In this document: positions 6,023 through 20,786 of the stretch, piece after piece | How the letters are laid out: the number at the start of each line of letters is the position of its first letter | Position numbering within the stretch: the first letter of the stretch is position 1 | NCBI RefSeq assembly: GCF_900100045.1 | Contig: NZ_FNEA01000001.1 | Location: 1 to 64,000, forward strand | Source: Paracoccus denitrificans | GTDB lineage: Bacteria > Pseudomonadota > Alphaproteobacteria > Rhodobacterales > Rhodobacteraceae | Direction of reading: 5' to 3' | Length of the DNA stretch: 64,000 nucleotides | Program-made: the position numbers and the translations under genes | Notes under the pieces: model-generated | Told to the model about the DNA's origin: nothing | Database searches by the model: none | The model's input: the letters and a program-made list of their open reading frames with translations, nothing else

Positions 6023-7255
6023 ATGCTGAAAGAACGGATAGCGGGTTTGCTCGACCAGCGCCGGCCCGGCCATTCCTTGCCCCGCGACTTCTATGTCGAT
6101 GACGAGATCTTTCGCGCCGACATGCAGGCGATATTCGAAACCGACTGGGTCTTTGCCTGCAACGTGGTCGAGATTCCGCGCCCCGGTGACTATGTTACGC
6201 TGAAGGTCGGCGACAATCCGGTCGTCGTGCTGCGCGATCGCGAGGGCCGGATCGCGGCCTTTCACAACAGTTGCCGCCATCGCGGCTCGCTGATCTGCCA
6301 GAAGGAGAGAGGGCGGGCGAACCGCCTGGTCTGCCCCTATCACCAATGGGTCTACGAGCTGGACGGCAGCCTGATCAATGCCCGCCAGATGCCCGAAGAT
6401 TTCGACAGGGCCGAACACGGCCTTGCCCCGGTCCACGTCGAGGTGATCTGCGGCATGGTCTATATCTGTCTTGCCGAGCAGCCGCCCTCGCTTGCGCGTT
6501 TCCGCGCCGGGGTCACGCCCTATATCGCCCCGCACATGCCCGACCGCACCAAGGTCGCCTTCACCTCGACCATCGTCGAGGAAGCGAACTGGAAGCTGGT
6601 GATCGAGAACAACCGCGAATGCTATCACTGCGCGGGCAACCATCCCGAACTGCTGGTGACGCTGGTCGAATTCGCCCTGCCCGACGACCCGCTGGCCAAG
6701 GCGCAGTTCCAGGGGCTGATGGACCGCTCGGCCGCGCGCTGGGACGCGCTGGACCTGCCCCACAAGCCGGCCGAGGGCGGCGTCGAGTTCCGCTGCATCC
6801 GCCTGCCCTTCAACGAGGACTGCCTGTCCTTCACCATGGACGGCAAGCCCGCCTGCAACAAGCTTCTGGCCGATTTCACCGAACCCGATCTGGGCTCGGT
6901 CCGCATGTTCCGGGTGCCGAACAACTGGAACCACTTCCTGTCCGACCACATCCTGCATTTCCGGGTCCTGCCGCTGTCGGCGAACCGCACCGAGGTGCGC
7001 ACGACATGGCTGGTCCACGAGGATGCGGTCGAGGGCGTGGATTACGACCTGCAACGCCTGACCGAAGTGTGGCTGGCCACCAATGACGAGGATCGCGTGT
7101 TGGCCGAGAACAACCATCGCGGCATCCTGTCGCGCGCCTACCGGCCCGGACCCTATGCGCCTTCGGAATTCATGCTGAACAATTTCTCGGAATGGTATGC
7201 GGGCAAGATGGGTGATTTCACCGGCGGCCCGCAGGCGCGGATTGCGGCGGAGTAA
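6023..7255 (+). CDS. Rieske non-heme iron oxygenase, GbcA-like (quaternary amine demethylase type)
   Basis: A 410-residue oxygenase component. The Rieske [2Fe-2S] ligands are Cys84-x-His86 and Cys104-x2-His107 (SCRHRG and CPYHQW). The mononuclear-iron region is NRECYHCAGNHPEL (about residues 197-210). The N-terminus RRPGHSLPRDFYVDDEIF and HQWVYELDGSL match glycine-betaine monooxygenase GbcA and stachydrine demethylases, which hydroxylate an N-methyl group and release formaldehyde. ATG 6023 is chosen because homologues start there and AAGAGG lies upstream; the frame is also open further upstream without homology. Its reductase follows 5 nt downstream. The exact substrate is unknown: glycine betaine, a proline betaine or another onium acid are all possible. 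Confidence 0.87.
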   Translation: MLKERIAGLLDQRRPGHSLPRDFYVDDEIFRADMQAIFETDWVFACNVVEIPRPGDYVTLKVGDNPVVVLRDREGRIAAFHNSCRHRGSLICQKERGRANRLVCPYHQWVYELDGSLINARQMPEDFDRAEHGLAPVHVEVICGMVYICLAEQPPSLARFRAGVTPYIAPHMPDRTKVAFTSTIVEEANWKLVIENNRECYHCAGNHPELLVTLVEFALPDDPLAKAQFQGLMDRSAARWDALDLPHKPAEGGVEFRCIRLPFNEDCLSFTMDGKPACNKLLADFTEPDLGSVRMFRVPNNWNHFLSDHILHFRVLPLSANRTEVRTTWLVHEDAVEGVDYDLQRLTEVWLATNDEDRVLAENNHRGILSRAYRPGPYAPSEFMLNNFSEWYAGKMGDFTGGPQARIAAE

Positions 7256-7260
7256 GGCGC

Positions 7261-8289
7261 ATGGACATGCAAGCCCCTTCGGCGGCCCTGCTGTCGCTGT
7301 CCTGCATCGCCGTCCGCGACGAGACGCCCACCGTCAAGACCTTTCGCCTGCGCGCGGACAGCGGCCCGGTAGGTTTCGTGCCCGGTCAGGCGCTGGTGCT
7401 GAAGGTGCCCTTGCCGGGTGGCCCGGTCTGGCGCAGCTTCACCATCTCGGGCGGCACGGGGGCCGAGCTTGAACTGACGGTCAAGGCGCAGGCACCGGGC
7501 GGCGCGACCCGCTGGCTGCATGAAAATCTGCGCGAAGGCAGCGGCATCGAGGCCCGCCCCCCGCGCGGCGCCTTCACGCTGGGGCTGCGCGACAACGACC
7601 GGCTGGCCTTCGTCTCGGGCGGATCGGGGGCCACGCCGATGATGGCGATGCTGCGGCATCTGGCGCAAACCGACCCCGAGGCCGATCTTGCGTGGTTTCA
7701 CGCCGCACGCAATCCGGCCGAGATCCTCTTTGCCCGCGAACTGGCCGAGATGCAGGGCCGGATGCCCAACCTGACGGTGGCGGTCGGCGTCAGCAAGGCC
7801 GCCCCGGGCTGGTTCGGTTATCGCGGGCGGGTCGACCGGACCCGGCTGGCCACCGCCATTCCCGATCTGGGCCGGCGCGAGGTGTTCTGCTGCGGTCCGC
7901 AGGGCTTCATGCAGGAGGTCCGGCTGATCCATGCCGCCGAGGGTGGCGTGCGGACGCAGTTCCACACCGAAAGCTTTGGCGCCGCCGCCCCGGCCGCCGC
8001 GCCCATGATCGAAACCGCGCCGGACAGCCCCGCCTTTGGCCTGACCGTGAACGGCCGCGCCATCGGCATCCGCCCGGACGAGACGCTCTTGCAGGCCAGT
8101 CTGCGCCAGGGGGTCGTCATCCCCTGCGGCTGCGGCGAAGGAATGTGCGGAACCTGCATGGTGCAACTCGTCTCGGGCCGGGTGGACAGCCGGCAGAATG
8201 GCGGGCTGACGCCGGAAGAGGCGGCCGAGGGTTATGTGCTGGCCTGCTCGACCCGCGCGGCGTCGGATGTCGAGATCAAGCTGGCCTGA
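7261..8289 (+). CDS. Rieske oxygenase reductase, GbcB-like (FAD/NAD/[2Fe-2S])
   Basis: This 342-residue electron-transfer protein should pass NAD(P)H electrons to the preceding oxygenase. Domain order is an FAD-binding barrel with RSFTISG (residues 60-66), an NAD domain with SGGSGATPMMAML, a CCGPQGFM element and a C-terminal plant-type ferredoxin with CGCGEGMCGTC and a fourth cysteine in VLACSTRA. This matches GbcB and hybrid NADH oxidoreductases in length and order. The start is ATG 7261; a second ATG two codons later is also possible. The 5-nt gap to the oxygenase gene indicates one operon. Confidence 0.9.
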   Translation: MDMQAPSAALLSLSCIAVRDETPTVKTFRLRADSGPVGFVPGQALVLKVPLPGGPVWRSFTISGGTGAELELTVKAQAPGGATRWLHENLREGSGIEARPPRGAFTLGLRDNDRLAFVSGGSGATPMMAMLRHLAQTDPEADLAWFHAARNPAEILFARELAEMQGRMPNLTVAVGVSKAAPGWFGYRGRVDRTRLATAIPDLGRREVFCCGPQGFMQEVRLIHAAEGGVRTQFHTESFGAAAPAAAPMIETAPDSPAFGLTVNGRAIGIRPDETLLQASLRQGVVIPCGCGEGMCGTCMVQLVSGRVDSRQNGGLTPEEAAEGYVLACSTRAASDVEIKLA

Positions 8290-8400
8290 CCCCGGATCGC
8301 GGTCGGATTTCTTTCCCTTCGGGTCGAAAACCTGCTGCCGACCCGGCGGGCTTTACACCAAGGATGGCCCTGCCGCGATGCAGTCACCAGAGGACGCAAG

Positions 8401-9984
8401 ATGAATACAGACCCCCGATCCGTCGCAGGCAAGCGCCTTGAGATCGCGGAGCGGACCCAGATCCTGATCGTCGGTGCCGGCCCCGCCGGGATCGCCGCCG
8501 CCCGCCATGCGCATCAAGGCGGCGCGCAGGTGATGCTGGTCGACGAACACCCCGTGCCCTTCGAGACGATGGGCGAAAGCGTCCCGCAGATCTGGGGCGG
8601 CCGGATGGGCGGCAGCGTCCGCAACCGCAATGCGATGACCGAACGGATGCTGGAAGCACGCCCCGATCTGGCAGAGCTGTTCGAGGCCGGCGTCGACATC
8701 CGTCTGGGCACGGCCTGCTGGGGGCTGTTCGCCAACCAGCCCAATCTGGGTTGGATACCGGGCCTGGTCGCCGGTCTGGCGGACGAGGAACAGGGCAGCC
8801 ATCTGGTCGGATTCGATCAGGCCATCGTGGCGACCGGGCGGCGCGACATGGGGCTGGCCTTTCCCGGTTGGGATATGCCCGGCGTGCTGGGCGCCGGCGC
8901 CGCGCTGGTGCTGGCGCGGCTCTATAACGCGCTGGACAGCCGCCGGGCGGTCATGCTGGGCTCGACCCCCGAGGCGCTGCTGGCGGTGCTGGAGCTGGTG
9001 AGTGCGGGCGTCGCCATCGCCGCCGTGGTCGAACAGGCCGCCGCCCCTGCCGCACCCGAGGATCTGGTGGCCCGCATCCGCGCCGCCGGGGTCGAGATCG
9101 TCACCGGCGAGGCGCCGCGCGGCGTTACCTCGGACGCGGATGGCGTTACCGGGCTGGTGCTGCGGAACCGCACCATCGCCTGCGATTCCGTCCTGCTGGG
9201 CGTGGGCGCGGTGCCGATGATCGACCTGCTGCACGCCGCCGGTGCGCGCTGTGCCTTCGACAATGATCGCGGCGGCTTCGTGCCCCTGCTGGGCGCGGGC
9301 GGCGAGACCAGCCTGCCCGGCATCCGCGCGGCTGGTGACTGCGCGGGCATCTGGCCCGCGAAATCCTCCGATCCGGCACTGGCCGTGGCCGAGGGCCGGC
9401 TGGCCGCCGGGGCCGCGCTGGCGGCGCTGGGTCTGGCGACCGCGCCGGCCGATGTCGCACCGCAACCCGGTCCCGCCGCCGATCTGGGCGAATACCGCAA
9501 GGCCTGGGTTCGCGCCTCGGTCGTGGAGGCCGTCGCCGAAATGCCGGTCTGCCAATGCGAGGAGGTCACGGCGCGCGAGATCCTGGATGTCAGCCCGCCG
9601 CGCTATCTGAATGCGCCGCATCTGCCGAACCTGACGCGCAGCCTGACCGAGATCCTGGGCGAGGGGCCGCCCGATCCCGACCAGATCAAGCGGCTGACCC
9701 GCGCCGGCATGGGCCCCTGCCAGGGCCGCCGCTGCCGCGAGCAGATCCAGGCGCTGCTGGCCTTGCAGGAGGACTTGTCGCTGGGGGTAGTGCCGCTGGC
9801 CGGCTATCGCAGCCCGGTCCGGCCGATCAGCCTGGCCGCTGCCGCCATGCCCGAGGATCCCGCCATCGCCGCCGCCTGGGATTCCTGGTTCGGAATGCCG
9901 CGCCAATGGATCCCCTTCTGGGATGTCGAGGAACATTACACGGTCGCCGCGCTTGCGACGGAGAAGGAACATGTCAGCGAATAA
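8401..9984 (+). CDS. FAD/NAD(P)-binding oxidoreductase with BFD-like Fe-S domain (HcnB/OoxA-like subunit A)
   Basis: A 527-residue pyridine-nucleotide-disulfide-type flavoprotein. Its N-terminal dinucleotide fold has [17 protein letters not shown], and the C-terminal BFD-like domain carries [12 protein letters not shown] and GPCQGRRC, four cysteines suited to a [2Fe-2S] cluster. The layout matches subunit A of octopine/nopaline oxidase, HcnB and the alpha subunit of D-hydroxyproline dehydrogenases. It needs a beta subunit, and the following gene overlaps it by 14 nt. A separate small ferredoxin-like subunit (HcnA type) is not seen nearby. AGAGGA lies 7 nt before ATG 8401. A role in oxidising an amine released by the Rieske enzyme is inferred. 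Confidence 0.85.
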
Positions 9985-11164
9985 CCCCATCCCCGGCGTC
10001 CACTCGGATGATGACACGCGCGGCGCCTCGGTCATCGTGATCGGCGGCGGCGTCACTGGCCTTTCCACTGCCTTCTGGCTGGCCGAGGCGGGCGTCGAAG
10101 TTCTGGTGCTGGAACGCGGCATCGTCGGCTGGGAGGCGTCGGGACGCAATGGCGGCGGTTGCTCGCACCACCACAGCCCGCTTTTCGCCGAGGAACAGCG
10201 GCTGTGGCCGATGATGGACGAGTTGCTGGGCTATCCGACCGAGTTCCGGCCGAACCGCATCCGCATCGCGCTGTCGGCCGAGCAGTTGACGCTCTACGGC
10301 CGTGCCGTGGCCAATGCCCGCAAGCAGGGCTTTCGCGCCGACGATCTGGACGCGCAGACCGTTCGCGAACTGGTGCCGCTGGCCGGGAACAACGTCCATG
10401 CCGGGCATTATTACCACTTTGGCGGCCATGCGAATCCGCACCGCACCGTGCAGGCCTATGCCTGGGCGCTGCGCGACCGGGGCGGGCGGGTGCGCCAGCA
10501 CGTCACCGTTACCGGCTTCAGGCGACAGGGCGACCGGGTGACGGCGGTCGAGACCGACAAGGGCGTCTTCTGCTGCGATCATCTGGTCATCGCGGCGGGC
10601 CCGCAGACCGGCAGGCTGGCCGCGATGCTGGAGGTGGACATCCCCATGCGTGCGGCCCGCGCCGAGATGATCGTCACCGAACCCTTGCCGCTGATGCCGC
10701 TGGGGGGGATTGACGGCAACGGGCTATATGGCCGCCAGACCCTGCGCGGCAACCTGGCCTATGGCGGCGGTCCGCATGAATGGGTCGAGACCGAGGCGCA
10801 ACCGGGCGGGCCGCGCCCCTCGACCCCGCTGGCGGGCAGCATCGCCCGGCGCGTGGCCGAGCTTCTGCCCAAGGCCGCCCATGCCCGCGTCATACGCAGC
10901 TGGTCGGGCATCATCGAGAACACCCCCGATGGCCGCCCGGTCATGGACCGCCCGGCACCGTGGGAGAACCTGACCGTCGCCACGCTGTCCGGCGTGGGCT
11001 TCGGCCTGTCGCCCGCCTCGGGCCGGGCGTTGATGCAACTGGTGATGCAGGGGCACTGCGATTTCGCCGATCTCTCCAGCTTGCGGCTGAGCCGCTTCAG
11101 CCGGCTCGAGCCGGATTGGGACGCGCTTCAGGGCTGGCTGCCCGCCTCGATGGCGACGGCCTGA
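9971..11164 (+). CDS. FAD-dependent amine/amino-acid oxidoreductase, DAO family (HcnC/OoxB-like subunit B)
   Basis: A 397-residue DAO-family flavoprotein with the N-terminal FAD motif [21 protein letters not shown], the adjacent [16 protein letters not shown] loop and the C-terminal [21 protein letters not shown]-closing segment. Members oxidise C-N bonds of sarcosine, glycine, D-amino acids or opines. ATG 9971 lies inside the end of the upstream gene (14-nt overlap), which fits translational coupling of a two-subunit dehydrogenase. Substrate assignment is inferred only from the neighbouring betaine demethylase and quaternary-amine importer. Confidence 0.88.
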
Positions 11165-11216
11165 TGCGGGTGGCCGGATGCGGGGCGGCTTGAAGCGCGG
11201 AGCGGCTTGACCCAAC

Positions 11217-12239
11217 ATGGCGCATCGCAACCCGGATCCGCCGATGTTCTACCACGACACGGGCGAGCCCTTGTGCTTCGCCTTCCTGATGATCGAGGGG
11301 CTCTCGATGCTGAGCCTTGCCTCGGCGACCGAGCCCTTGCGCGCCGCGAACCGCCTGCTGGGGCGCGAGGTCTTCCGCTGGGACCTGTGCAGCATCGACG
11401 GCCTGCCGGTCATGCCGTCCTCGGGCATTCCCTTTCCGGCGATCCATGTCGACCAGGCGATCGAGCGCAACCATGCCCTGTTCATCTGCGGCGGCGCGCG
11501 GGTCGATCCGCAGGACGAACGCCCCTATCTTGCCGCCCTGCGGCGGGCAGCGCATCGCGGCCGGGCCATCGGTGCCCTGTCCACGGCCAGCTATCTGCTT
11601 GCCCGCGCCGGGTTGCTGGACGGTTATCGCTGCACGATCCACTGGGAAAACCGCGCCGCCTTCGAGGAGGATTTCCCCCACCTGCCGATCACCGGCACGC
11701 TTTACGAGATCGACCGCAACCGGCTGACCTGCTCGGGCGGGACGGCCTCGATGGACCTGATGCTGCATATCATCGCCGACCTGCACGGGCGCGACCTGGC
11801 GAACGGGGTCGCCAACCAGTTCCATCATGCCCGCATGCGCGATGCGGGCGAGAACCAGCAGGGTGGCCGGGCCGAGCAGATCGGCACCCTGCCCGGGACG
11901 ATGCAGATGGCCATCCGGCTGATGCAGGCCAATATCGAGGCGCCGTTGCAGATCGAAAGGCTGGCCGAGCTGGCGGGTGTCAGCGAGCGCCAGATGGAGC
12001 GCAACTTCCGCAATTTCCTGGGCATGACGCCGGCGCGCTATTACCTGTCGCTGCGGATCGAGCGCGCGCGCGAAATGCTGCTTTATACCGAACAGCCGAT
12101 CATCGACATTGCCGTCGCCACGGGCTTCGCCTCGACCTCGCATTTCTCGAAATGGGTCAAGGAGTTCTATGGAATACGCCCAAGCGAGATGCGCGAACAG
12201 GCGCGGGCTGCCCGGGCCAGGTCGCGCCGCATCGCCTGA
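11217..12239 (+). CDS. GlxA-family AraC-type transcriptional regulator (GbdR/CdhR-like)
   Basis: A 340-residue activator. The N-terminal half has the DJ-1/PfpI-like amidotransferase fold (FAFLMIEGLSMLSLASATEPLRAAN; ALSTASYLLARAGLLDGYRCTIHWEN) and the C-terminal third has an AraC double helix-turn-helix (IERLAELAGVSERQMERNFR and IDIAVATGFASTSHFSKWVKEFYG). Close relatives GbdR and CdhR sense glycine betaine/dimethylglycine and carnitine. It ends 21 nt from the tail of the minus-strand operon and follows the Rieske operon, so it plausibly controls both arms. No clear Shine-Dalgarno precedes ATG 11217; ATG 11244 is an alternative. Confidence 0.87.
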   Translation: MAHRNPDPPMFYHDTGEPLCFAFLMIEGLSMLSLASATEPLRAANRLLGREVFRWDLCSIDGLPVMPSSGIPFPAIHVDQAIERNHALFICGGARVDPQDERPYLAALRRAAHRGRAIGALSTASYLLARAGLLDGYRCTIHWENRAAFEEDFPHLPITGTLYEIDRNRLTCSGGTASMDLMLHIIADLHGRDLANGVANQFHHARMRDAGENQQGGRAEQIGTLPGTMQMAIRLMQANIEAPLQIERLAELAGVSERQMERNFRNFLGMTPARYYLSLRIERAREMLLYTEQPIIDIAVATGFASTSHFSKWVKEFYGIRPSEMREQARAARARSRRIA

Positions 12240-12260: not shown

Positions 12261-13586
12261 TCAGGTCGCGCCCAGCAGGCCGAACAGCGCCGTCGTGCCG
12301 CCGCCGTCGCCCAGCCGGTCCACCGCCCTTTCCAGATCGGTGGTGCGAGCCTTGCCCAGAACCGGCGCGGCATAGGCGCGGAACTTGGCGCGCACCGCAT
12401 CCATCGGGGCCGGCGCCTCGGGATCGCCCGCCGCTTCGGTCGGGCCGGATTCCAGCACCCGGCCGTCCTTCATCACCAGCCGCACATCGGCAAACCGGCG
12501 GGCCGGGAAGGCGGCATTGAAATCCTCGCGCTCGGTGACGGTCATGCCGGCGGCAAGGCTGCGGATCAGCGGGTCGGCCAAGCCGTCCTCGGCCACGTCC
12601 GCCGGATCGACGCGGCCCCGCACCAGCGCCACGGCGGCGGGATAGGCAGTGGAATACTGCGCCTCTTCGGTGCTGGCCGGATTGCGGGCGGCAAGGCGGC
12701 GGGACTGGTGAAAGGTGGTGATCTCGATCCGCTCGACCTGATCGGCGGTCACGCCATGCCGCGCCCGTAGGTCCAGCACCGCCTGCACGGAGGGCTGCGC
12801 CCAGCGGCAGACCGGCCAGGGCTTGAAATACTGCTCGGCGATGCGCCAGTTCGTGCCCAGATCGGCCCACAGGTCGGCGACATCCGCGCCCTCGACGATG
12901 ATCGCCGGGGCGCCGGTGAATCCCTCCGCCGCCAGATAGGCGGCCGAGACCCCGGCCATCGCGCCCCAGCCCGAACCGTCCTTGACCATGGTCGGATGGT
13001 CGATGCAGCGCATCATCTGGCTGCGCGGGCCGTGATATTCGGCGATGCCCACGGCCTCGCGCGTCCGTGCCGCGTCCAGTCCCAGCACCCGCGCGCCCAG
13101 CGACGCCGCCGCAACCGCGATCCAGGCACCCGAGGTGTGATAGTCGCAGGCGGTGCGGTGCAGCGCGATGCCTGCGCGCGTTCCGACCTCGTACCCGATG
13201 ACCAGGCCGGCCAGAAACTCGCGGTCGTCCGCCCGCCCTTCGGCCTGCATCAGCGCCAGCAGGGCGGGCAGGCTGCCGCAACCGACATGGCCCTTGGTCA
13301 GCTTGTGGCCGTCATGGCCGTCCAGCGCGTCGATGGTCATGCCGCCCGCCAGCGCCGCCCCCGCCGGGCTGACCATGCGGCCATCCATCAGCATCGGGGC
13401 AGCGCGGCCGCCTGCGCCGAAATGCGCCGCCGCATGGTCGCGGATGATGCGCGACAGCCGTGTCCGGCTGCCGCCCGCCGCGACCCCCAGCAGGTCCAGA
13501 AGCCAACGGCGGCCGAGGTCCAGCACCGGCTCCGGCATGTCCGCCATACGCATGTCGTGCAGGAAGTCGTGAAAGGGCGATGTCAT
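12261..13586 (-). CDS. MmgE/PrpD family protein
   Basis: A 441-residue protein of the 2-methylcitrate dehydratase/cis-aconitate decarboxylase/iminodisuccinate epimerase family. Visible are LLDLLGVAAGGS, GGMTIDALDGHDGHKLTKGHVGCGSLPAL (the helical-domain signature) and GIAEYHGPRSQMMRCIDHPTMVKDGSGWGAMAGVSAAYLAAEGFTG split across the body of the protein. Met at 13586 is preferred over 13619 because it avoids overlap with the ligase gene and has GAGGA upstream. It is the last gene of the eight-gene operon that starts at 20786. It probably hydrates, dehydrates or epimerises a short carboxylic acid; which one is unknown. Confidence 0.87.
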   Translation of the reverse strand: MTSPFHDFLHDMRMADMPEPVLDLGRRWLLDLLGVAAGGSRTRLSRIIRDHAAAHFGAGGRAAPMLMDGRMVSPAGAALAGGMTIDALDGHDGHKLTKGHVGCGSLPALLALMQAEGRADDREFLAGLVIGYEVGTRAGIALHRTACDYHTSGAWIAVAAASLGARVLGLDAARTREAVGIAEYHGPRSQMMRCIDHPTMVKDGSGWGAMAGVSAAYLAAEGFTGAPAIIVEGADVADLWADLGTNWRIAEQYFKPWPVCRWAQPSVQAVLDLRARHGVTADQVERIEITTFHQSRRLAARNPASTEEAQYSTAYPAAVALVRGRVDPADVAEDGLADPLIRSLAAGMTVTEREDFNAAFPARRFADVRLVMKDGRVLESGPTEAAGDPEAPAPMDAVRAKFRAYAAPVLGKARTTDLERAVDRLGDGGGTTALFGLLGAT

Positions 13587-13596: not shown

Positions 13597-15159
13597 TCAG
13601 CAGGCCGGCTGCGGGGCATGGCGCGCGACCAGTTCGCGCCGGAGCACCTTGCCGCTGGGGTTCAGCGGCAGGCTTTCCAGAAACTCGTATCGGCGGGGCC
13701 GCTTGTAGGGCGCCAGAGCGTCGCTGGCCTTGCAGAACGCATCCAGGTCCTGCGCGCTCAGCGCCGGGTCCGAGCGGACGACGAAGGCCGTCACCGCCTG
13801 GCCCCATTTCTCGTCCGCCAGCCCGACGACTGCCACCTCCTGCACGCCGGGGCAGCGATAGAGGATCTCCTCGACCTCGCGCGGATGGATGTTCTCGCCG
13901 CCCGAGACGATCATGTCGTCGGCCCGGCCGTGGAAATAATAGAACCCGTCCCGGTCCTGGCTGAACAGGTCGCCCGTATAGATCCAGCCTGCCTTCAGCT
14001 TCTTCTGCGTCTCGAACGGGTTGTTCCAATAGCCCTGCATCGCCTGCGGGCCGCGCACGATCAGCTGGCCCACCTGTCCGCGCGGCACGGTTTCCGAGGG
14101 CGGCACCTCGCGCATGGGATCGTCGGTCACGATCCGGCATTCCGAAATCAGCGTCGGCTTGCCGCAGGATCCCAGCTTGCGCAGCGCGTCCTGCGGATGC
14201 AGCACCAGCGTCAGCGACGCTTCGGTCATGCCGTAGCCGTTGAAGATCGCCGGGCAGAACTCGGCCATCACCCGTTCCATCGTCGCGGCGGAAATGGCCG
14301 CGCCGCCGGTGGTGATCAGCCGCAGCGAAGTGAGGTCCTGATCGCGGAAGCGCGGGTGAAACAGCATCTCCTGGATTTGGGTGGGCACGGCGAACAGCGT
14401 GGTGATGCGCTCGGCCGCGATGGTGTCCAGCGTCTTTTCTGCCTCGTAGCGGCCGATCACGACATTGGTGCCGCCGACCAGCAGATGCGGAATGAAATAG
14501 GCTTGCATGCCGCCCACATGGTAAAGCGGCGCGATATGCAGCGCATTGTCGGTATGGTTCAGCGAATATTCCATGACGCAGTTCATCGCGATGGCGATGT
14601 CGTTGGCATGGGTGTGGATCACCCCCTTGGGCCGCCCGGTCGTCCCCGAGGTATAGACCAGCGAGGAAATCGCATCCCCCGAGGGAATGATGCGCGGCTC
14701 GTCGCGATCCGCGGTCTGCTCGGCCAGGGTTTCGAAATGCAGGTGGCCGGCGGGGATATGTGCCCGGTCGTAGGCGCAGCCGATGAAATCGTGGATCGAA
14801 TGCATCTGCGCCGCGATCCGTTCGACGTTCCCGGTCAGGCTGCGGCCATAGATCAGCACGCGGGCGCCGGAATCCTGCAGGATGTGGGCGGCCTCGCCCG
14901 CCGAAAGGCGAAAGTTCATCGGCACCGCCACCGCGCCCAGCATCTGGCAGGCGAAATAGGTCGTCACCGAGTTTTCCGAGGTCGAGACATAGAAGGCCAC
15001 GCGGTCCCCCGGCCGCACCCCCAGATCCGACAGCGCCTGCGCAAAGCGGCGGACGCGGGCCAGCCATTCGGCATAGGTCCAGCGCCTGTCCTCGAAGACC
15101 AGCGCAAGATGATCCGGGTAGCGGTCGGCGGAAGCCTCGAGAATGCGGGCGATATGCAT
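13597..15159 (-). CDS. Class I adenylate-forming acyl-CoA ligase
   Basis: A 520-residue ANL-superfamily ligase activating a carboxylic acid with ATP and CoA. Motifs are the P-loop SLVYTSGTTGRPKG, YGMTEASLTLV (A5), YTGDLFSQDRDGFYYFHGRADDMI (A7/A8, longer than one line of this field) and the C-terminal lysine motif PSGKVLRREL. The start at 15159 has AGAGA upstream on the minus strand. It sits 16 nt after the acyl-CoA dehydrogenase gene and 10 nt before the PrpD gene. CaiC and DmdB, which activate carnitine and methylmercaptopropionate, are in the same superfamily, which fits an onium-acid substrate but does not prove it. Confidence 0.9.
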   Translation of the reverse strand: MHIARILEASADRYPDHLALVFEDRRWTYAEWLARVRRFAQALSDLGVRPGDRVAFYVSTSENSVTTYFACQMLGAVAVPMNFRLSAGEAAHILQDSGARVLIYGRSLTGNVERIAAQMHSIHDFIGCAYDRAHIPAGHLHFETLAEQTADRDEPRIIPSGDAISSLVYTSGTTGRPKGVIHTHANDIAIAMNCVMEYSLNHTDNALHIAPLYHVGGMQAYFIPHLLVGGTNVVIGRYEAEKTLDTIAAERITTLFAVPTQIQEMLFHPRFRDQDLTSLRLITTGGAAISAATMERVMAEFCPAIFNGYGMTEASLTLVLHPQDALRKLGSCGKPTLISECRIVTDDPMREVPPSETVPRGQVGQLIVRGPQAMQGYWNNPFETQKKLKAGWIYTGDLFSQDRDGFYYFHGRADDMIVSGGENIHPREVEEILYRCPGVQEVAVVGLADEKWGQAVTAFVVRSDPALSAQDLDAFCKASDALAPYKRPRRYEFLESLPLNPSGKVLRRELVARHAPQPAC

Positions 15160-15175: not shown

Positions 15176-16366
15176 TCACAGATTGGGACGGATCGCCGGC
15201 ATCTCGCGTGCCGCGATCAGGTATTTGCACATCTCGGAACTGCCGCCGACGATGGGCAGCGCGCGGGCATCGCGGTAAAGCTGCTCGACACGGCCATATT
15301 GGCGGGTGACGCCGTCACCGCCGAGGATCTGCACCGCACGGTCGGAACAGAAGACGGCGGTCTCGGTCGCGACCAGCTTGGCCTGGCTGGCCTCGCGCAT
15401 CAGGTCCTTGCCGCCGATGCCGTCGTCATACATCCTGGCCGCCCGCTGGGTCAGCAGTTCGGCCGCGTCGATCCGCCAGCTCATCTGCGCGATCATGTCC
15501 CAGATCAGCTGTTTCTGGCCCAGCCTCTCACCGAAGCTGACGCGGCTTTGCGCATGGTCCCGCGCCAGGTCGAAGGCCGCTCGCGCCACGCCCAGGCCCG
15601 AACCGCCCAGGATCACCCGCTCGAAGTTGAAGGCCTCCAGCATGATGCGGAAACCGGCGTCCGCCTGCCCCAGCAGGTTCTCCTCGGGGACGCGGACCCC
15701 GTCCAGCGCGACCTCGCCCACCACCGAGCCGCGCCGGCCCATGAAGTCATAGATGCGGGGAAAGGACAGCCCGGGGGTATCGGCGGGAACCAGCACCGCG
15801 CTCATGCCCTTCTGCGGGGCGGCACCGGGATCGGTGATGCCCCAGACGATGTAGACATCGGCCCTGGATGCGTTCGAGATATAGCGTTTGAACCCGTCGA
15901 TCACCCATTCGCGGCTGGCCTCGTCGAAGCGGATCGCAGTTTCCATGCCGGCGCTGTCCGATCCGACGTTCGGCTCGGTCATGCAGATCGAGCCGACGGC
16001 GCGGCCTTCCAGGATCGGCATCAGGTAGCGTTCGCGCATCGCCGGCCGGGCATGGCGGTGGATCGGGTAGGCGCAGGACAGGGCCGTGGCGATGGTCGTC
16101 TCGAAGGCATAGTTCAGATAGGCGGCCTCTTCCGAGACGATCACCGCATGGGTCAGGCCGGGCCGCGACAGGCTGCCCGTATAAAGGTCGGGGAACATCA
16201 GCTTCAGATAGCCGGCCTTGCCCAGGGCCCGCGCGACCTCAAGCTGGGCCGCGAAATCCTGGTCGCGCTCGATCCGGTCCACGCGCGGGGCCAGTTCGCG
16301 GGCCAGGAAATCGCGGATCTCGGTGCGGAAGGCCCGGTCCTCGTCATTCAGGAAGAAATCGCGCAT
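15176..16366 (-). CDS. Acyl-CoA dehydrogenase
   Basis: A 396-residue flavoprotein introducing an alpha,beta double bond into an acyl-CoA. Visible are FLNDEDRAFRTEIRDFLARE at the N-terminus, CMTEPNVGSDSAGMETA (FAD/substrate loop), RYISNASRADVYIVWG, VGEVALDGVRVPEENLLG and the C-terminal QILGGDGVTRQYGRVEQLYRD split element followed by GGSSEM. Length is standard for the family. It lies between the C-N hydrolase and the CoA ligase, with gaps under 20 nt on both sides, so ligase and dehydrogenase should act in sequence on the same acid. Confidence 0.92.
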   Translation of the reverse strand: MRDFFLNDEDRAFRTEIRDFLARELAPRVDRIERDQDFAAQLEVARALGKAGYLKLMFPDLYTGSLSRPGLTHAVIVSEEAAYLNYAFETTIATALSCAYPIHRHARPAMRERYLMPILEGRAVGSICMTEPNVGSDSAGMETAIRFDEASREWVIDGFKRYISNASRADVYIVWGITDPGAAPQKGMSAVLVPADTPGLSFPRIYDFMGRRGSVVGEVALDGVRVPEENLLGQADAGFRIMLEAFNFERVILGGSGLGVARAAFDLARDHAQSRVSFGERLGQKQLIWDMIAQMSWRIDAAELLTQRAARMYDDGIGGKDLMREASQAKLVATETAVFCSDRAVQILGGDGVTRQYGRVEQLYRDARALPIVGGSSEMCKYLIAAREMPAIRPNL

Positions 16367-16378
16367 CGTCGTCTTGCC

Positions 16379-17254
16379 TCATTCGCGGACGAAATCCGGG
16401 ACGCCCAACGTGTCGATCAGCCGCGCCGTCTCGCGCTGGACCAGCGCCAGATTGCTGTCGCGCACGGTGGGCAGCAGGTGGCGCGCACGGCGCAGCACGT
16501 CATAATCCAGCGTCGCGGTGATCATCTCTTCGCCGGAACCGGCTACGGCCAGTGCGCGCCCGAAGGGATCGATGATGCGCGAACCGCCCCAGAAGGTCAG
16601 GTCGCGCTCGGTCCCGGTGCGGTTCACCATGACGACCGGAGCGCCATAGATCATTGCATAGAACCGGCAGGTCAGCGCCCAGCCGCCGGGATTGTCGAAA
16701 TCGACGCCTACCGCCTCCTCGCCGGAACTGACCGGGCAGATCAGCAGGGTGGCGCCATGCAGAAAGGCCAGGTGGGTCAGCGCCGGGTTCCAGACATCGG
16801 CGCAGATCAGCAGGCCCGCGCGCCAATACCCATCCAGTTCGCAGGTCTCGACGAAGCGGCCGGGCGCGTAATGCTTGCCCTCTTCCAGCTTGCCATAGGT
16901 GGGCAGGTTCACCTTGCGGTGCAGATGGATCATCCGCCCGTCGCACAGGATCGCGGCTGCGTTGTAGAATTGCGCGGCCGGTCCTTCCTCGATGAAGCCC
17001 AGCGTCACGGCCATCGGTCCCGCCGCCTCGGCCAGCCGCTTCAGCCGCGGATCCTTGCGCGACATGGCGGCGTCGAGCAGGTTCTCGGAGCCGTAATGGC
17101 CGGTCAGCGACAGCTCCGGCATGACCAGCATGTCCAGACCGGCCTCGCGCCCTCGCGCGATCCAGTGCAGGTGGCGGTCCAGGTTGGCGTCGACATCGCC
17201 GATCTCGCTGGAGAATTGCGCGGCGCCGATGGTGATCGTCTTGTTGGTCGTCAT
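16379..17254 (-). CDS. Carbon-nitrogen hydrolase (nitrilase superfamily)
   Basis: A 291-residue amidase/nitrilase-fold enzyme. The catalytic triad is visible as Glu in VMPELSLTGHYG, Lys in HLHRKVNLPTYG and Cys in LLICADVWNP. Met at 17254 starts MTTNKTITIGAAQF, the canonical first strand of the fold; the frame is open 15 codons further upstream without homology. It is the fifth gene of the operon, directly after the periplasmic binding protein and 12 nt before the acyl-CoA dehydrogenase. An amide (or nitrile) bond in the imported compound is the simplest reason for its presence. The family alone does not give the substrate. Confidence 0.88.
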   Translation of the reverse strand: MTTNKTITIGAAQFSSEIGDVDANLDRHLHWIARGREAGLDMLVMPELSLTGHYGSENLLDAAMSRKDPRLKRLAEAAGPMAVTLGFIEEGPAAQFYNAAAILCDGRMIHLHRKVNLPTYGKLEEGKHYAPGRFVETCELDGYWRAGLLICADVWNPALTHLAFLHGATLLICPVSSGEEAVGVDFDNPGGWALTCRFYAMIYGAPVVMVNRTGTERDLTFWGGSRIIDPFGRALAVAGSGEEMITATLDYDVLRRARHLLPTVRDSNLALVQRETARLIDTLGVPDFVRE

Positions 17255-17319
17255 CGCCTTCGGCCCTTCCGCATCGCCACCCCGAGGGCAGGGGCGCATC
17301 CGCCCCCGCCGCTCTCGCC

Positions 17320-18204
17320 TCAGTTCAGGCCGTTGTCTTGCAGGAATTTCGCCGCCGCATTCTCGACCGAGACCTTGTCCACGTCGACGCTGGCGTTCAG
17401 CGCGGCCATGACCTGATCGTCGAGCTTGGCCGAAACCTCGTTCAGCAGGTCGCCGATATCTGGGTTCGCCTCCAGCACCTGGGTGCGGATCACGGGTGCC
17501 AGCGCGTAGCTGGGGAAATAGCCCTGATCGTCCTCCAGCACGGTGAAGTCGAAGGCGGGAATGCGGCCATCGGTGGCAAAGACCAGCCCCACGTCGACCT
17601 GCCCGTCCCGCAGCGCCTGATAGACCAGCCCGGTATCCATGCGCTTGACGTTGGCGCGGCCGAACTCGAAGCCATAAGCCGTCTCCAGCGGCTTCAGCCC
17701 ATCCGGGCGGGCATAGAATTCGGCGTTCGAGCCGAATGTCAGGCTTTGGCCGCCGTTGATCGCCCCCGCCAGGTCGGAGATGGACGCGATGCCCTTTTCG
17801 CTGGCATCCGCCGCGCGCATCGCCAAGGCATAGGTGTTGTTCGCCTCGGACGGGTTCAGCCAGACGATGCCCTTCTGGGCGTCCAGCTCCTTGACCGTGT
17901 CATAGGTCTGCTGTGGGTCCAGCTTTTCCTCGATATTGTTGTAGGTGATGAGCGAGGTGCCGGTATATTCCCAATAGACGTCGATCTGGCCGTTCTCCAT
18001 GGCCTGGCGCACCGCGGCCGAGCCCATGCCAGCGCGATTGTCGACCCGGTGGCCGTTGGCCTCCAGCACCTGCTGGGTGATGGCGGACAGGATCTGCTGT
18101 TCGGTGAAGTTCTTGCCGCCGACGACGATGTCGGCCGCCTGCGCGCCCGTCGCGAAAGCCGCGAAGGCAAATGCCGCAAGGCCGGACTTGACGATGATGT
18201 TCAT
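17320..18204 (-). CDS. Glycine betaine/quaternary amine ABC transporter substrate-binding protein (OpuAC/OsmF-type)
   Basis: A 294-residue periplasmic binding protein with a Sec signal peptide (residues 1-22, FAAFATGAQAA). It then shows the OpuAC-family sequence IVVGGKNFTEQQILSAITQQ and the WEYTGTSLITYN region that binds trimethylammonium-type ligands. A strong Shine-Dalgarno AGGGAG precedes Met 18204, behind a CA-rich leader (CCAACAACCAA) also found before other binding-protein genes here. It is encoded after the second permease and before the catabolic genes, so the importer and enzymes share one transcript. Confidence 0.92.
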   Translation of the reverse strand: MNIIVKSGLAAFAFAAFATGAQAADIVVGGKNFTEQQILSAITQQVLEANGHRVDNRAGMGSAAVRQAMENGQIDVYWEYTGTSLITYNNIEEKLDPQQTYDTVKELDAQKGIVWLNPSEANNTYALAMRAADASEKGIASISDLAGAINGGQSLTFGSNAEFYARPDGLKPLETAYGFEFGRANVKRMDTGLVYQALRDGQVDVGLVFATDGRIPAFDFTVLEDDQGYFPSYALAPVIRTQVLEANPDIGDLLNEVSAKLDDQVMAALNASVDVDKVSVENAAAKFLQDNGLN

Positions 18205-18242
18205 TCTGTTGGCTCCCTTTGGTTGTTGGTTCTTGTTCCGCC

Positions 18243-18965
18243 TTATCGAAGCGGATTCACGCCCTTCGGGATCAGCCGCAACTGCGCCTGTCCCATCAGG
18301 AAATCGACGGCCACGGCCAGCGCTGCGGTCGGGACGGCGCCCGCCAGCAGCATGCCCGTATCCATGAGGTCGATGCCGGTAAAGATCAGCTCGCCCAAGC
18401 CCCCGCCACCGATCAGGAAGGCCAGCGGCGTCGTGCCCACGTTGATCGCCAGCGCCGTGCGGATGCCCGAAAAGATGACATAGAGCGCATTCGGGATCTC
18501 GACCCGCATCAGGATCTGCCGTTGTGTCATGCCCATGCCCGTCGCGGCCTCCTTCAGGTGCGAAGGCACCGCCAGCAGCCCGGCATAGGTATTGCGCACA
18601 ATGGGCAGGAGCGAGGCCACGAACAGTCCGAAGAAGGCCGGCGGAAAGCCGATGCCCAAAAGCGTCATCGACAATGCGATGACCGCGAGCGTCGGTATGG
18701 TGGTGCCGATGTTGAAGACCTGCATCACCGTTTCGGCATAGCGTTCCATCGAGGGGCGCGACAGCCAGATGCCCACCGGCACGCCCACGAGGATCGCCGC
18801 TCCGCCGGAACTGGCGACCAGGAACACATGCTGGCGCGTCAGGTAGGTGATGTCGTCCCAGTATATCGTGATCTGGTCCAGCAACCCCGAGGTTGCCACC
18901 CAGATGCCCAGCAGGAAGACCAGCAGCATCGTCGCCCCGCGCCCGAGACCCAGCCAGCGTGTCAT
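18243..18965 (-). CDS. Quaternary amine ABC transporter permease (OpuC-type, second permease)
   Basis: A 240-residue inner-membrane permease with five to six hydrophobic segments. The BPD domain has the EAA-type loop EAATGMGMTQRQILMRVEIPNA near residue 150, typical of OpuBB/OpuCB proteins. Met 18965 overlaps the ATPase stop by 4 nt, supporting this start over the longer frame beginning at 19088. It pairs with the permease at 20136-20786. Confidence 0.9.
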   Translation of the reverse strand: MTRWLGLGRGATMLLVFLLGIWVATSGLLDQITIYWDDITYLTRQHVFLVASSGGAAILVGVPVGIWLSRPSMERYAETVMQVFNIGTTIPTLAVIALSMTLLGIGFPPAFFGLFVASLLPIVRNTYAGLLAVPSHLKEAATGMGMTQRQILMRVEIPNALYVIFSGIRTALAINVGTTPLAFLIGGGGLGELIFTGIDLMDTGMLLAGAVPTAALAVAVDFLMGQAQLRLIPKGVNPLR

Positions 18966-20116
18966 GACGCCCCCTGTTCCGGTCCCGCGCCCTTGTCGGG
19001 GCCATAGGTCGCGCGCAAGGCCGCGGTCACGTCCGGCTGGGTGATGACGCCCGCGAAACGGCCGTGATCGTCGGTGCAGGCCAGCCACATCGTGTCATGG
19101 GCGAACATCTCCGAGACCACGGCCCGCAGGTCCGCGCGGACCGGCACGGTGGCGGGCAGCGGATGGGCAAAGTCCCGGACCGTGCCCGAGGCGCCGGCCA
19201 TTTCTTCGGCGGTCACGAAGCCCACCGGGCGGCGGTCGCTGTCGATGACGACCGCGCGGCGCGCCTTTGCGACGGTCAACTGGTGCAACGCGTCGGACAC
19301 CTTGGTCGACCGCGCGGTCACCGGCACCTCGGTGGACGCCACCTCTTCGGCCGTGACCAGCCGCAGCCGCTTCAGCGTGCGGTCCGCGCCCACGAAATCG
19401 GCGACGAAGGCATTCGCGGGATGGGCCAGGATCATGTCGGGCGTGTCGTATTGCTCGATACGGCCGGCGCGGAAGATGGCGATCTTGTCACCCATCTTCA
19501 CCGCCTCGTCGATGTCGTGGCTGACGAACATGATGGTCTTCTTCAACTCGGCCTGCATCTTCAGGAACTCGTCCTGGATGATCTCGCGGTTGATCGGGTC
19601 GATGGCGCCGAAGGGCTCGTCCATCAGCATGACCGGCGGATCGGCGGCCAGCGCCCGGATGACGCCGACGCGCTGCTGCTGGCCGCCCGACAGCTCCTTG
19701 GGATAGCGGCGCAGGAACTGGCGCGGGTCCAGGCCCACCAGGTCCAGCAGGTCCGCCGCGCGCTGCCGGGCCTTGCGGATGTCCCAGTTCAGCAGCCGGG
19801 GAACGACGCAGATGTTCTCCTCGATGGTCATGTTGGGAAACAGGCCGATCTGCTGGATCACATAGCCGATATTGCGGCGCAGCTGGATATCGTCCAGCTG
19901 CGAGGTGTCCTGCCCGTCGATATAGATCTTGCCGCTGGTGGGCGGGATCAGCCGGTTGATCATCTTCAGCGCCGTGGTCTTGCCGCAGCCCGAAGGCCCC
20001 AGCAGGATGCAGATCTCGCCGGTGGGCACTTCCATGTTCACCCGGTCGGCGGCGACGATGTCGGCGCCGGGGGTCTTGAATCTCTTGGTCAGGTCTTCGA
20101 GTCGGATCATTCGCAA
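18962..20116 (-). CDS. Quaternary amine ABC transporter ATPase with CBS domains (OpuCA-type)
   Basis: A 384-residue ATPase. Walker A is GPSGCGKTTALK, the Q-loop is YVIQQIGLFP, the signature is LSGGQQQRVGV, Walker B is VMLMDEPFGAID and the H-loop is FVSHDIDEA. Residues from about 250 form two CBS-like segments (VSDALHQLTVAKARRAVVID; RADLRAVVSEMFAHDTMWLA), as in OpuCA/OpuAA, where they sense ionic strength or nucleotides. It is flanked by its two permeases and overlaps the downstream one by 4 nt. Met 20116 or 20110 is possible. Confidence 0.93.
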   Translation of the reverse strand: MRMIRLEDLTKRFKTPGADIVAADRVNMEVPTGEICILLGPSGCGKTTALKMINRLIPPTSGKIYIDGQDTSQLDDIQLRRNIGYVIQQIGLFPNMTIEENICVVPRLLNWDIRKARQRAADLLDLVGLDPRQFLRRYPKELSGGQQQRVGVIRALAADPPVMLMDEPFGAIDPINREIIQDEFLKMQAELKKTIMFVSHDIDEAVKMGDKIAIFRAGRIEQYDTPDMILAHPANAFVADFVGADRTLKRLRLVTAEEVASTEVPVTARSTKVSDALHQLTVAKARRAVVIDSDRRPVGFVTAEEMAGASGTVRDFAHPLPATVPVRADLRAVVSEMFAHDTMWLACTDDHGRFAGVITQPDVTAALRATYGPDKGAGPEQGAS

Positions 20117-20135
20117 AGGTCCTTGCTCGGAAGCG

Positions 20136-20786
20136 TCAGCGTTTCAGCCCGGCCGGGGTCAGCCGCTTCTGCAATTGCAAAAGCGCCCAGTCGGCCAAGA
20201 TGGCGAGAAGAGAGACGGCCAGCGCGCCGGTGATCAGCTGGCGCGGATCGGTCTGCGAAATGCCGCGCGCGATCAGCACGCCCAGACCGCCGGCGCCGAT
20301 ATAGGCGGCGATCGCCGCGACGCCGATATTCATGACCACGGCGGTCCGCACGCCGGCCATGATGACCGGGATCGCGATGGGGATTTCGAGCCGGGTCAGC
20401 CGCTGGAAAGGCGTCATGCCCATGCCGATGGCCGCCTCGCGCAGCGCGGGATCGACATTGGTGATGGCGGTATAGGTGTTGCGCACGATGGGCAGCTGCG
20501 AATAGAGCAGGATCGCGATCACCGCGGGCAGCCAGCCGATCCCCTGGCCGATCTTGGACAGGATCGGGATCATCAGGCCGAAAAGCGCGATCGAGGGGAT
20601 CGTGACGATGATCGAGGCCACATAAAGCACCCCGTCCGCGACGCGCCGGTTCTGGGTGATGGCGATGCCGATGGGCACGCCGGTCAGGATCGCCAACCCC
20701 ACAGCCACGGCGACGATCGAGATGTGCTCGCCCGCCAGACGCAGGATGACCGGCCAGTTATTCGCAATGAAACCAAATATTTCCAT
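20136..20786 (-). CDS. Quaternary amine ABC transporter permease (OpuC-type, first gene of operon)
   Basis: A 216-residue permease beginning MEIFGFIANNWPVILRLAGE, with the EAA loop REAAIGMGMTPFQRLTRLEI. Met 20786 is preferred because AGAGGG lies just upstream and homologues begin here; a longer frame up to 20879 has no homology. It is the promoter-proximal gene of the minus-strand operon ending at 12261. The 657-nt region between it and the divergent NitT-type operon must hold its promoter. Confidence 0.9.
   Translation of the reverse strand: MEIFGFIANNWPVILRLAGEHISIVAVAVGLAILTGVPIGIAITQNRRVADGVLYVASIIVTIPSIALFGLMIPILSKIGQGIGWLPAVIAILLYSQLPIVRNTYTAITNVDPALREAAIGMGMTPFQRLTRLEIPIAIPVIMAGVRTAVVMNIGVAAIAAYIGAGGLGVLIARGISQTDPRQLITGALAVSLLAILADWALLQLQKRLTPAGLKR

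Follow-up and report, generated by a model that had tools for sequence, protein, structure and literature searches.

A Paracoccus denitrificans gene cluster that may break down an amide-bearing amino-acid betaine

To our knowledge, degradation routes are known for few amino-acid betaines. The glycine betaine route proceeds through GbcAB, then dimethylglycine dehydrogenase and then SoxBDAG. Two other enzyme groups matter here: HcnBC, opine oxidase and D-hydroxyproline dehydrogenase are two-subunit flavoenzymes, and DavA-type amidases belong to the nitrilase superfamily. We analyzed a window of 64,000 nucleotides from Paracoccus denitrificans (assembly GCF_900100045.1, contig NZ_FNEA01000001.1, positions 1 to 64,000), in which positions 6023-20786 hold a two-armed gene cluster. 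The plus-strand arm encodes a Rieske oxygenase, its reductase, a two-subunit flavoenzyme (FADa and FADb) and a GlxA/AraC-family regulator (GlxA). The minus-strand arm encodes an OpuC-type importer, a carbon-nitrogen (CN) hydrolase, an acyl-CoA dehydrogenase, a CoA ligase (these two together being the CoA pair below) and a PrpD-family protein (PrpD).

We tentatively propose that this cluster is a catabolic island whose substrate is an alpha-amino-acid betaine bearing an amide, with glutamine betaine (N,N,N-trimethylglutamine) or a compound much like it as the most probable candidate. Glutamine betaine is favored because it fits the pocket of the binding protein, the features of the CN hydrolase and the hints of a C5 acid described below, and because it occurs in cereals. 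Two papers report it from flours of barley, rye, oat and wheat, as well as from samples of rye and wheat bread or dough (PMC5890289, PMC5920414), and the first of them reports twelve amino-acid betaines identified in rye and wheat (PMC5890289). Among the matches listed in open-licence PMC papers, the three naming glutamine betaine were all analytical or food papers and none dealt with its catabolism; subscription papers lay outside the search. A preliminary description of the stretch had proposed that an imported onium amide or acid is hydrolyzed, activated with CoA, dehydrogenated and hydrated while its ammonium end is demethylated. Our analysis upholds an onium pathway that is fed by an OpuC importer, includes N-demethylation and the hydrolysis of an amide, and is distinct from that of carnitine; it does not support a single fixed pathway using all the enzymes. 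The features are as follows.

6023..7255, plus strand: Rieske oxygenase of 410 amino acids, predicted group Vb (GbcA/Stc2-type) N-demethylase (Pfam Rieske and Ring_hydroxyl_A, NCBIfam, motif, tree)
7261..8289, plus strand: predicted GbcB-like oxygenase reductase with FAD, NAD and 2Fe-2S (Fer2) domains, immediately 3' of the Rieske gene (NF058606, 237 bits against a cut-off of 500)
8401..9984, plus strand: flavoenzyme alpha subunit FADa with a BFD-type [2Fe-2S] domain, resembling soxA but lacking its folate domain (Pfam/NCBIfam)
9971..11164, plus strand: flavoenzyme beta subunit FADb of the DAO family, soxB-like, with FADa a probable N-demethylating dehydrogenase (DAO, 215 bits)
11217..12239, plus strand: GbdR-like GlxA/AraC-family regulator, DJ-1/PfpI plus AraC (NF052371 GbdR, 307.6 bits against a cut-off of 480)
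12261..13586, minus strand: MmgE/PrpD-family protein of uncertain role, epimerase or lyase (Pfam)
13597..15159, minus strand: acyl-CoA ligase of a putative optional CoA branch (AMP-binding, 309 bits)
15176..16366, minus strand: acyl-CoA dehydrogenase of the same putative branch (best NCBIfam model glutaryl-CoA dehydrogenase, 248 bits against a cut-off of 470)
16379..17254, minus strand: nitrilase-superfamily amidase (CN_hydrolase) resembling glutaminase and omega-amidase enzymes (sequence, predicted structure, residues)
17320..18204, minus strand: OpuAC-type substrate-binding protein (OpuAC, 229.5 bits; ProX-type pocket residues)
18243..18965, minus strand: OpuC-type permease (BPD_transp_1)
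18962..20110, minus strand: ABC ATPase with CBS domain, ProV/OpuCA type (TIGR01186, 341.7 bits, above the cut-off of 326.6)
20136..20786, minus strand: OpuC-type first permease (BPD_transp_1), its start taken as the ATG at 20786, although the longest open reading frame (ORF) there reaches 20879
2..1842, plus strand: one-carbon genes folD (cut by the window edge) and purU (958-1842), both 100% identical to PD1222 proteins

All genes named in the preliminary description are uninterrupted frames where it had placed them, and Pfam and NCBIfam agree with the families given. The two arms meet tail to tail as described, the GlxA stop at 12239 lying 21 nt from the PrpD stop at 12261. Four P. denitrificans plasmid records match positions 5897-20900 (15,004 bases) at 100.0% identity; one of them is plasmid 1 of the laboratory strain PD1222, where the cluster corresponds to PDEN_RS24310-24370.

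In our model, in which all activities are inferred along with the substrate, the sequence of the reactions and the regulation, the importer would bind the trimethylammonium-carboxylate head and take the compound up, and the CN hydrolase would cleave the side-chain amide with release of ammonia. The Rieske oxygenase and its reductase would then oxidize one N-methyl group to formaldehyde (tri- to dimethyl), and the two-subunit flavo/Fe-S enzyme would take off a further one. The last methyl could be removed by the flavoenzyme pair or by SoxBDAG, whose genes lie next to folD-purU in PD1222, yielding glutamate and one-carbon units. PrpD and the CoA pair would form an optional second branch acting on the deamidated acid, and GlxA is the likely inducer-sensing regulator.

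The importer is complete, with a binding protein, two permeases and a CBS-domain ATPase (Pfam/NCBIfam). Aligned to Archaeoglobus fulgidus ProX, whose pocket residues we take to form an aromatic cage and a carboxylate-binding site for the ammonium and carboxylate ends, the binding protein retains Lys13, Tyr63, Thr66, Tyr111, Arg149 and Tyr214 (here K31, Y80, T83, Y125, R166 and Y233), while Tyr190 is replaced by Phe. Among 85 homologues at 45% identity or above, near-identical sequences included, each of the six is retained in 81 to 85, and 75 have Phe at Tyr190. Such a pocket would fit an alpha-betaine with a free carboxylate, and the amide would therefore be expected in the side chain. As the importer genes adjoin and run in line with the CN-hydrolase gene, the use of the importer is probably catabolic rather than osmotic. 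Closely related OpuC importers, with a first permease about 71% identical, also occur in Shinella (L021:1526-12810) and on pSymA of Sinorhizobium meliloti (L022:4599-15062). There they stand in clusters of another betaine-type pathway, with an MttB-family methyltransferase, GlxA, an M24 peptidase and isochorismatase-, mandelate-racemase- and Ldh-family genes.

The closest solved sequence to the CN hydrolase is the glutaminase domain of NAD+ synthetase (5kha). Its AlphaFold model (pLDDT 93.9), compared with known structures in VIA, matches the omega-amidase Nit2 (Z 34.9), a glutaramide-bound amidase (34.7), a formamidase (34.5) and NadE (33.9). The use of these scores to pick an amidase type was given up, as omega-amidase, formamidase, carbamoylputrescine amidase and NadE fall within about one Z unit. 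Residue comparisons were made over 105 sequences, near-identical ones included. The enzyme carries the Cys-Glu-Lys triad (C151, E47 and K114), with Y120 and E125 at the positions of NAD+ synthetase Tyr127 and Glu132. The triad is invariant in importer-linked CN hydrolases, as are Trp155, Trp192, Tyr203 and Phe221, and Tyr is retained in them at the Tyr127 position; the Glu132 position is Asp in 11 of the 57 importer-linked sequences at 43% identity or above. At the position of NAD+ synthetase Glu177, beside the catalytic Cys, the window enzyme has Ala152, and Ala or Asn occurs there in 65/65 importer-linked sequences, while Glu occurs in 11/39 others. According to the paper from which we took the NAD+ synthetase residue roles, Glu177 of NadE contacts the ligand-binding Tyr (PMC6946656). 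A ligand lacking an NH donor, for example one with a trimethylated alpha-amine, would fit the altered site. CN_hydrolase was the only domain found in the protein, with no fused synthetase domain. Relatives lacking the importer adjoin asparagine-synthase-like (L039, L040) and glutamine-synthetase-like (L038) genes.

For the Rieske enzyme, the nearest solved relatives are 3vca and 4qup, which we take to be Stc2, and the best NCBIfam hit is GbcA (NF058607; 528.6 bits, under the curated cut-off of 670). Quaternary-amine Rieske oxygenases have been divided into group Va, with an aromatic residue at CntA position 203, and group Vb, with Asn there; group Vb is described as carrying out oxidative demethylation of glycine betaine and proline betaine, with the substrate carboxylate on the iron in Stc2 (PMC7948474). 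The window enzyme has the motifs CRH...CPYH and E199CYHC...H, including the bridging Glu199 before the Fe-binding His, and Asn197 at the CntA Y203 position. The string ENNRECYH is found in it and, without exception, in the 18 further linked-clade loci read across the motif. By these residues the enzyme belongs to the demethylating group Vb and not to the carnitine-type group Va, and CntA-type C-N cleavage of carnitine was rejected on the replacement of the diagnostic aromatic residue at 203 by Asn. The genome holds two further full-length GbcA/Stc2-type Rieske genes (518.3 and 485.9 bits), and none of its five GbcA-model matches reaches the cut-off. One of the two, on contig C58, adjoins formate dehydrogenase genes; the other, on C36, adjoins a formaldehyde dehydrogenase gene and an enolase-superfamily gene resembling cis-3-hydroxyproline dehydratase. 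These two enzymes may serve glycine and proline betaine. In a tree from which hits covering less than 75% of the query had been removed, the window enzyme is a third, separate type, and the Rieske enzymes linked to importer and CN hydrolase form one clade (17 rows, support 99/98).

For the flavoenzyme pair, removal of N-methyl groups appears more likely than oxidation of the carbon backbone. FADa has Pyr_redox_2, Fer2_BFD and a weak SO_alpha_A3 (sarcosine-oxidase A3) domain and no GCV_T domain, and scores 102 bits with soxA against a cut-off of 1164; FADb scores 124.2 bits with soxB (TIGR01373), below the cut-off of 529.45. Searches of NCBIfam and of solved structures gave no close solved or curated relative for the pair. 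What its relatives carry instead was observed directly. In 3 of the 13 Paracoccus genomes with this Rieske gene, the Rieske, reductase and GlxA genes are present and FADa and FADb are absent. Two of these three have soxBDAG directly after GlxA, with a soxB that shares 89-90% identity with the PD1222 gene; in the third, GlxA is followed by an 807-aa protein with DAO, FAO_M, GCV_T and GCV_T_C, the make-up of a dimethylglycine dehydrogenase. Two loci of other Alphaproteobacteria (L119, L127) have a Rieske gene, a PLP gamma-lyase-family gene, FADa, FADb and an N-methyl-tryptophan-oxidase-like gene, with a reductase only in L119. Because N-demethylases replace or neighbor the pair in these relatives, it probably removes N-methyl groups itself.

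FADa was found in 7/385 genomes of the class and 4/398 of the phylum, with the present genome in both samples and one other genome shared between them. Eight other genomes of these samples have it; in two of them (L119, L127) the Rieske gene belongs to a different clade, and two more carry soxB (L114, L126). Protein searches of a plasmid collection with FADa and the binding protein returned mostly distant relatives. In PD1222, the stretch about 4-11 kb upstream of the Rieske gene contains soxBDAG, folD and purU. The present genome has two soxB genes above the TIGR01373 cut-off, both away from the cluster, and a soxB 100% identical to that of PD1222 lies on contig C66. FolD and PurU are a possible sink for the N-methyl carbon.

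A related gene set occurs at L119:6598-14303, L127:6527-13551 and L023:7328-14649, one of them from Novosphingobium capsulatum, with an other-clade Rieske enzyme, an enzyme of the cystathionine-gamma-synthase/methionine-gamma-lyase family and the same flavoenzyme pair; L023 additionally has a CocE hydrolase. We speculate that these clusters demethylate, step by step, a betaine substituted at the gamma position, for example the trimethylhomoserine head of betaine lipids, and that the gamma-lyase completes the process.

Conservation was followed with the CN hydrolase and four aligned relatives as bait in species-representative genomes across phyla, which gave at least 80 loci with flanks of up to 10 kb. 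The importer was scored as present when the binding protein occurred with the ATPase or the first permease, the identity thresholds were set by hand, and the ORFs of relatives were called by codon usage. Short contigs (e.g. L031, L033, L059 and L063) were counted as absences, and L067, L083, L085 and L086, with a binding protein and no detected ATPase or first permease, as lacking the importer. By this measure the importer is present in 50/80 CN-hydrolase loci. These 50 include PrpD in 31, the CoA pair in 13, a crotonase-type hydratase in 10, GlxA in 19 and Rieske plus FADa in 5; among the 30 loci without importer, PrpD occurs in 6 and the dehydrogenase, ligase and Rieske genes in none. The share of importer-linked loci is 6/9 at CN-hydrolase identities of 60% or above, 7/13 at 50-60%, 31/35 at 43-50%, 2/10 at 38-43% and 4/13 below 38%. 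The importer-hydrolase pair is thus the unit encountered most often, and it occurs in Bacillus as well as in Alpha-, Beta- and Gammaproteobacteria; the conserved core is importer plus CN hydrolase, often with PrpD, in a linkage that is strong and not universal. At the level of the family, 9/248 genomes have a CN-hydrolase match.

The preliminary description had expected the two arms to travel together, and the outcome is mixed. In Paracoccus, at the thresholds used, the oxygenase and CN-hydrolase genes are never apart: the Rieske gene (E <=1e-170) occurs in 13/125 genomes and the CN hydrolase (E <=1e-35) in the identical 13, on one contig and within 9.2 kb in all of them, and 112 genomes have neither. 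The 13 genomes share ancestry, so these are not thirteen independent events. FADa is present in 10 of them, PrpD in 9 and the CoA pair in 4, the latter two counts being taken from the stretches read plus a plasmid comparison for Paracoccus sp. MA (counted as G458, as the coordinates agree; P. alcaliphilus, L006, was counted as G393). In the 80-locus set, by contrast, only 5/50 importer and CN-hydrolase loci hold the Rieske arm.

Where linked, the arms recur in different arrangements. Seven layouts in Alpha- and Betaproteobacteria keep the Rieske arm and importer together: the P. denitrificans, P. yeei and P. onubensis types, one with the importer head to head with the Rieske gene (G394, G435 and G446), and those of Bosea, Caballeronia turbans and Ancylobacter. 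Among the linked CN hydrolases, well supported branches force 4 label changes, which may be gains (new pairings) or losses, and a single origin is found in none (0%) of 200 bootstrap trees; the tree comprised 32 sequences picked by hand from the 105, with near-identical and many Halomonas ones left out. In the P. yeei group, a Rieske enzyme 84-86% identical to that of the window stands beside a CN hydrolase only 44-45% identical. The linkage of Rieske gene and importer exceeds chance adjacency, and since one Rieske clade pairs with several importer-hydrolase lineages, the Rieske enzyme and CN hydrolase probably share a substrate. One further sequence, from L027 (titled Oceanobacillus sp. HTM 045), is 81% identical to the window CN hydrolase and nests among Paracoccaceae and Roseobacteraceae; the assembly is probably mislabeled or contaminated.

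YdiJ- or GlcD-type 2-hydroxyacid dehydrogenases recur in 5/50 importer loci (three of them Bacillus with GlcD) and in Shinella L019; the YdiJ of L055 scores 1527.8 bits, above the curated D-2-hydroxyglutarate dehydrogenase cut-off of 1350. Their recurrence points weakly to a C5 acid. Three loci (L019:7247-17749, L029:6409-18323 and L055:1259-11872) combine importer and CN hydrolase with an Amidohydro_2-type protein, an alpha/beta hydrolase and a YdiJ-type dehydrogenase, and constitute a third downstream version of the pathway. The YdiJ-type gene is split in Shinella HZN7, and the L029 alpha/beta hydrolase, without a Pfam hit, was named from its Shinella relative.

The preliminary description had placed PrpD and the CoA enzymes in the one pathway, which our comparison does not support. 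The ligase and dehydrogenase always occur together (13/13 loci having either in the 80-locus set), only 2 of these 13 loci also have a Rieske gene, and a separate crotonase-type hydratase, missing at the window locus, is present in 10 of the 13, which makes a hydratase role for PrpD doubtful. PrpD itself scores 22.3 bits with the 2-methylcitrate dehydratase model TIGR02330 (cut-off 458), is placed in its superfamily by Pfam alone, and has IRG1-type proteins and iminodisuccinate epimerase as nearest solved relatives; epimerization or elimination at an amino-dicarboxylate is possible. PrpD, ligase and dehydrogenase are most readily understood as a second branch, which several relatives employ in the absence of the Rieske enzyme. 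On a Mesorhizobium mediterraneum plasmid (L145:12709-15513, L146:13464-18188) the acyl-CoA dehydrogenase occurs in two copies, one with the ligase and the second near a short gene that is annotated as PrpD and follows an IS3 transposase. The surroundings include a further Rieske gene (42% identical) along with ABC transporter and dipeptidase genes, and the region looks partly decayed.

Several observations weigh against the proposed glutamine betaine island. The same binding pocket occurs in relatives of other gene settings (L021, L022), which does not single out glutamine betaine. The substrate call rests on a distant resemblance: structural alignments give the CN hydrolase 23-27% identity to the glutaminase domains of NadE, and the structure scores of several amidase types are about level. 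Its close relatives partly lack the importer (6/9 and 7/13 have it, some contigs being short), L128 and L129, of the same family beyond Paracoccus (63-65%), show neither importer nor PrpD in the stretch read, and in 45/50 importer and CN-hydrolase loci the stretch covered lacks a Rieske gene. In Ancylobacter (L008) the CN hydrolase found alongside Rieske arm and importer is only distantly related (30%), and neither a CN hydrolase nor an OpuC binding protein appears in the stretches read from the eight other FADa genomes (two of them short contigs). SoxBDAG lies outside the window and not beside the Rieske arm in every species, PrpD, ligase and dehydrogenase have no convincing place in a route of deamidation and demethylation, and the best operator-like motifs common to both promoters, within 400 bases each, were no better than in shuffles.

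A broader version, possible but doubtful in our view, is that the cluster represents a widespread, undescribed catabolic system for glutamine betaine and related amide betaines, with a core of importer and glutaminase-like CN hydrolase, often with PrpD, and interchangeable downstream modules. These would be the Rieske enzyme with flavo-demethylases; CoA ligase, dehydrogenase and hydratase; or lactonase-like hydrolases with D-2-hydroxyglutarate dehydrogenase. In the last, the side-chain carboxylate would displace trimethylamine from L-glutamate betaine with inversion, giving an (R)-lactone and then D-2-hydroxyglutarate.

Somewhat unlikely is the use of the same machine on another onium amide, such as a betaine peptide, a carnitinamide-like or butyrobetaine-amide-like compound or another amide betaine. 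Peptide-type hydrolases beside related importers would point to a conjugate, and there are CocE (S15 family) genes beside the importer or CN hydrolase in L008, L056, L082, L083, L085 and L086, M24 peptidases in L021, L034, L046, L047, L053, L055 and L060, a membrane dipeptidase in L021, and an acyl-CoA dehydrogenase near ABC transporter and membrane dipeptidase genes on the M. mediterraneum plasmid; the structure comparisons, too, do not separate amidase types. However, the binding protein retains its carboxylate-binding residues, Asn in place of CntA-type Tyr203 disfavors carnitine-type chemistry, and Pfam and NCBIfam found no peptidase among the cluster proteins scanned. Homarine was also considered, since the N-methylglutamate enzyme Mgd is reported to act in its catabolism (PMC13390433), and was left out of the readings.

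An ordinary glycine betaine or dimethylglycine locus seems improbable. Here the OpuC importer would take up glycine betaine, the Rieske enzyme and reductase would convert it to dimethylglycine, the flavoenzyme pair would be an alternative dimethylglycine dehydrogenase, SoxBDAG would act last, and the CN hydrolase and PrpD would serve something else. The group Vb Rieske enzyme with GbcA as its best model agrees with this, as do soxBDAG-folD-purU upstream in PD1222 and the replacement of the flavoenzyme pair by soxBDAG or a dimethylglycine-dehydrogenase-type enzyme. Yet the GbcA cut-off is missed (528.6 against 670, although the two other Rieske enzymes of the genome, at 518.3 and 485.9, miss it too), the window clade is separate from those two genes, and the CN hydrolase in 13/13 Rieske-positive Paracoccus genomes is left unexplained. 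Least probable of all is the linear pathway of the preliminary description, with CoA activation, dehydrogenation and PrpD hydration during demethylation: every enzyme is present at the window locus, the CoA pair and a crotonase-type hydratase follow importer and CN hydrolase in Caballeronia, Paraburkholderia and Pandoraea, and a Roseovarius metagenome-assembled genome adds an MttB-family gene (named from a relative's annotation) to the CoA-pair set, but the pair is absent from 9/13 Paracoccus loci that keep the Rieske arm, the Rieske gene is absent from most CoA-pair loci, and the window lacks the hydratase of these relatives.

Two neighboring regions of the window were noted. Just upstream of the Rieske gene, positions 3392-5615 encode a luciferase-like FMN monooxygenase and, by the PD1222 annotation, CMD-domain and alkylhydroperoxidase-domain proteins. 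Beyond the importer, positions 21444-27273 hold an NMT1-type ABC importer, a divergent LysR gene, a class III CoA-transferase (CaiB; best model succinate-glutarate CoA-transferase, under its cut-off) and an HMG-CoA-lyase-like gene, a separate operon of dicarboxylate type. Its genes were rejected as part of the pathway, those in that place in P. versutus (L025) matching at only 29-37%.

If the catabolic island for glutamine betaine or a close analogue is real, it would show how an amide betaine can be degraded and introduce a new type of N-demethylating flavoenzyme, and the importer and CN hydrolase would make a marker gene pair for users in soils and saline water. It would also suggest that betaine pathways are assembled from a fixed core of uptake and deamidation and an exchangeable handling of the trimethylammonium group. 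The earlier suggestion that the cluster may be undescribed stands so far, as no account of it was among the matches listed in open-licence PMC papers, subscription papers being outside the search.

Compared with the glycine betaine route, the locus has in common a group Vb Rieske enzyme, a GbcB-like reductase, a GbdR-like GlxA/AraC regulator and, in PD1222, soxBDAG-folD-purU nearby. It differs in adding an importer-coupled CN hydrolase and PrpD, in having a two-subunit [2Fe-2S] flavoenzyme where that route has one of the known dimethylglycine dehydrogenases, and in missing the GbcA and GbdR cut-offs. With proline betaine demethylation by Stc2 it shares the closest solved Rieske structures (3vca/4qup) and what would be N-demethylation of an alpha-betaine, whereas its Rieske enzyme falls in a separate clade from the one beside the enolase-superfamily gene in the same genome. 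No HpbA-type N-methylproline demethylase was among the best 25 NCBIfam matches of the window proteins scanned, the rest of the genome not being searched. Like CntAB, it would use a Rieske oxygenase with a bridging glutamate on a quaternary amine, but the Asn at CntA Tyr203 (Vb, not Va) means that no C-N cleavage to trimethylamine is expected.

The importer resembles OpuC, ProX and EgtU systems in its two permeases, CBS-domain ATPase and OpuAC protein with a betaine pocket, and unlike these osmoprotectant importers it adjoins a CN-hydrolase gene. That hydrolase shares with the NadE glutaminase domain, Nit2 and DavA-type amidases the fold, the Cys-Glu-Lys triad and a resemblance to glutaminases and omega-amidases; unlike NadE it is a stand-alone protein without a synthetase domain and with Ala or Asn at the Glu177 position. 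Finally, the flavoenzyme pair combines a Pyr_redox_2 and BFD subunit with a DAO subunit, as do HcnBC, opine oxidase and D-hydroxyproline dehydrogenase, and differs from them in its linkage to Rieske demethylases.

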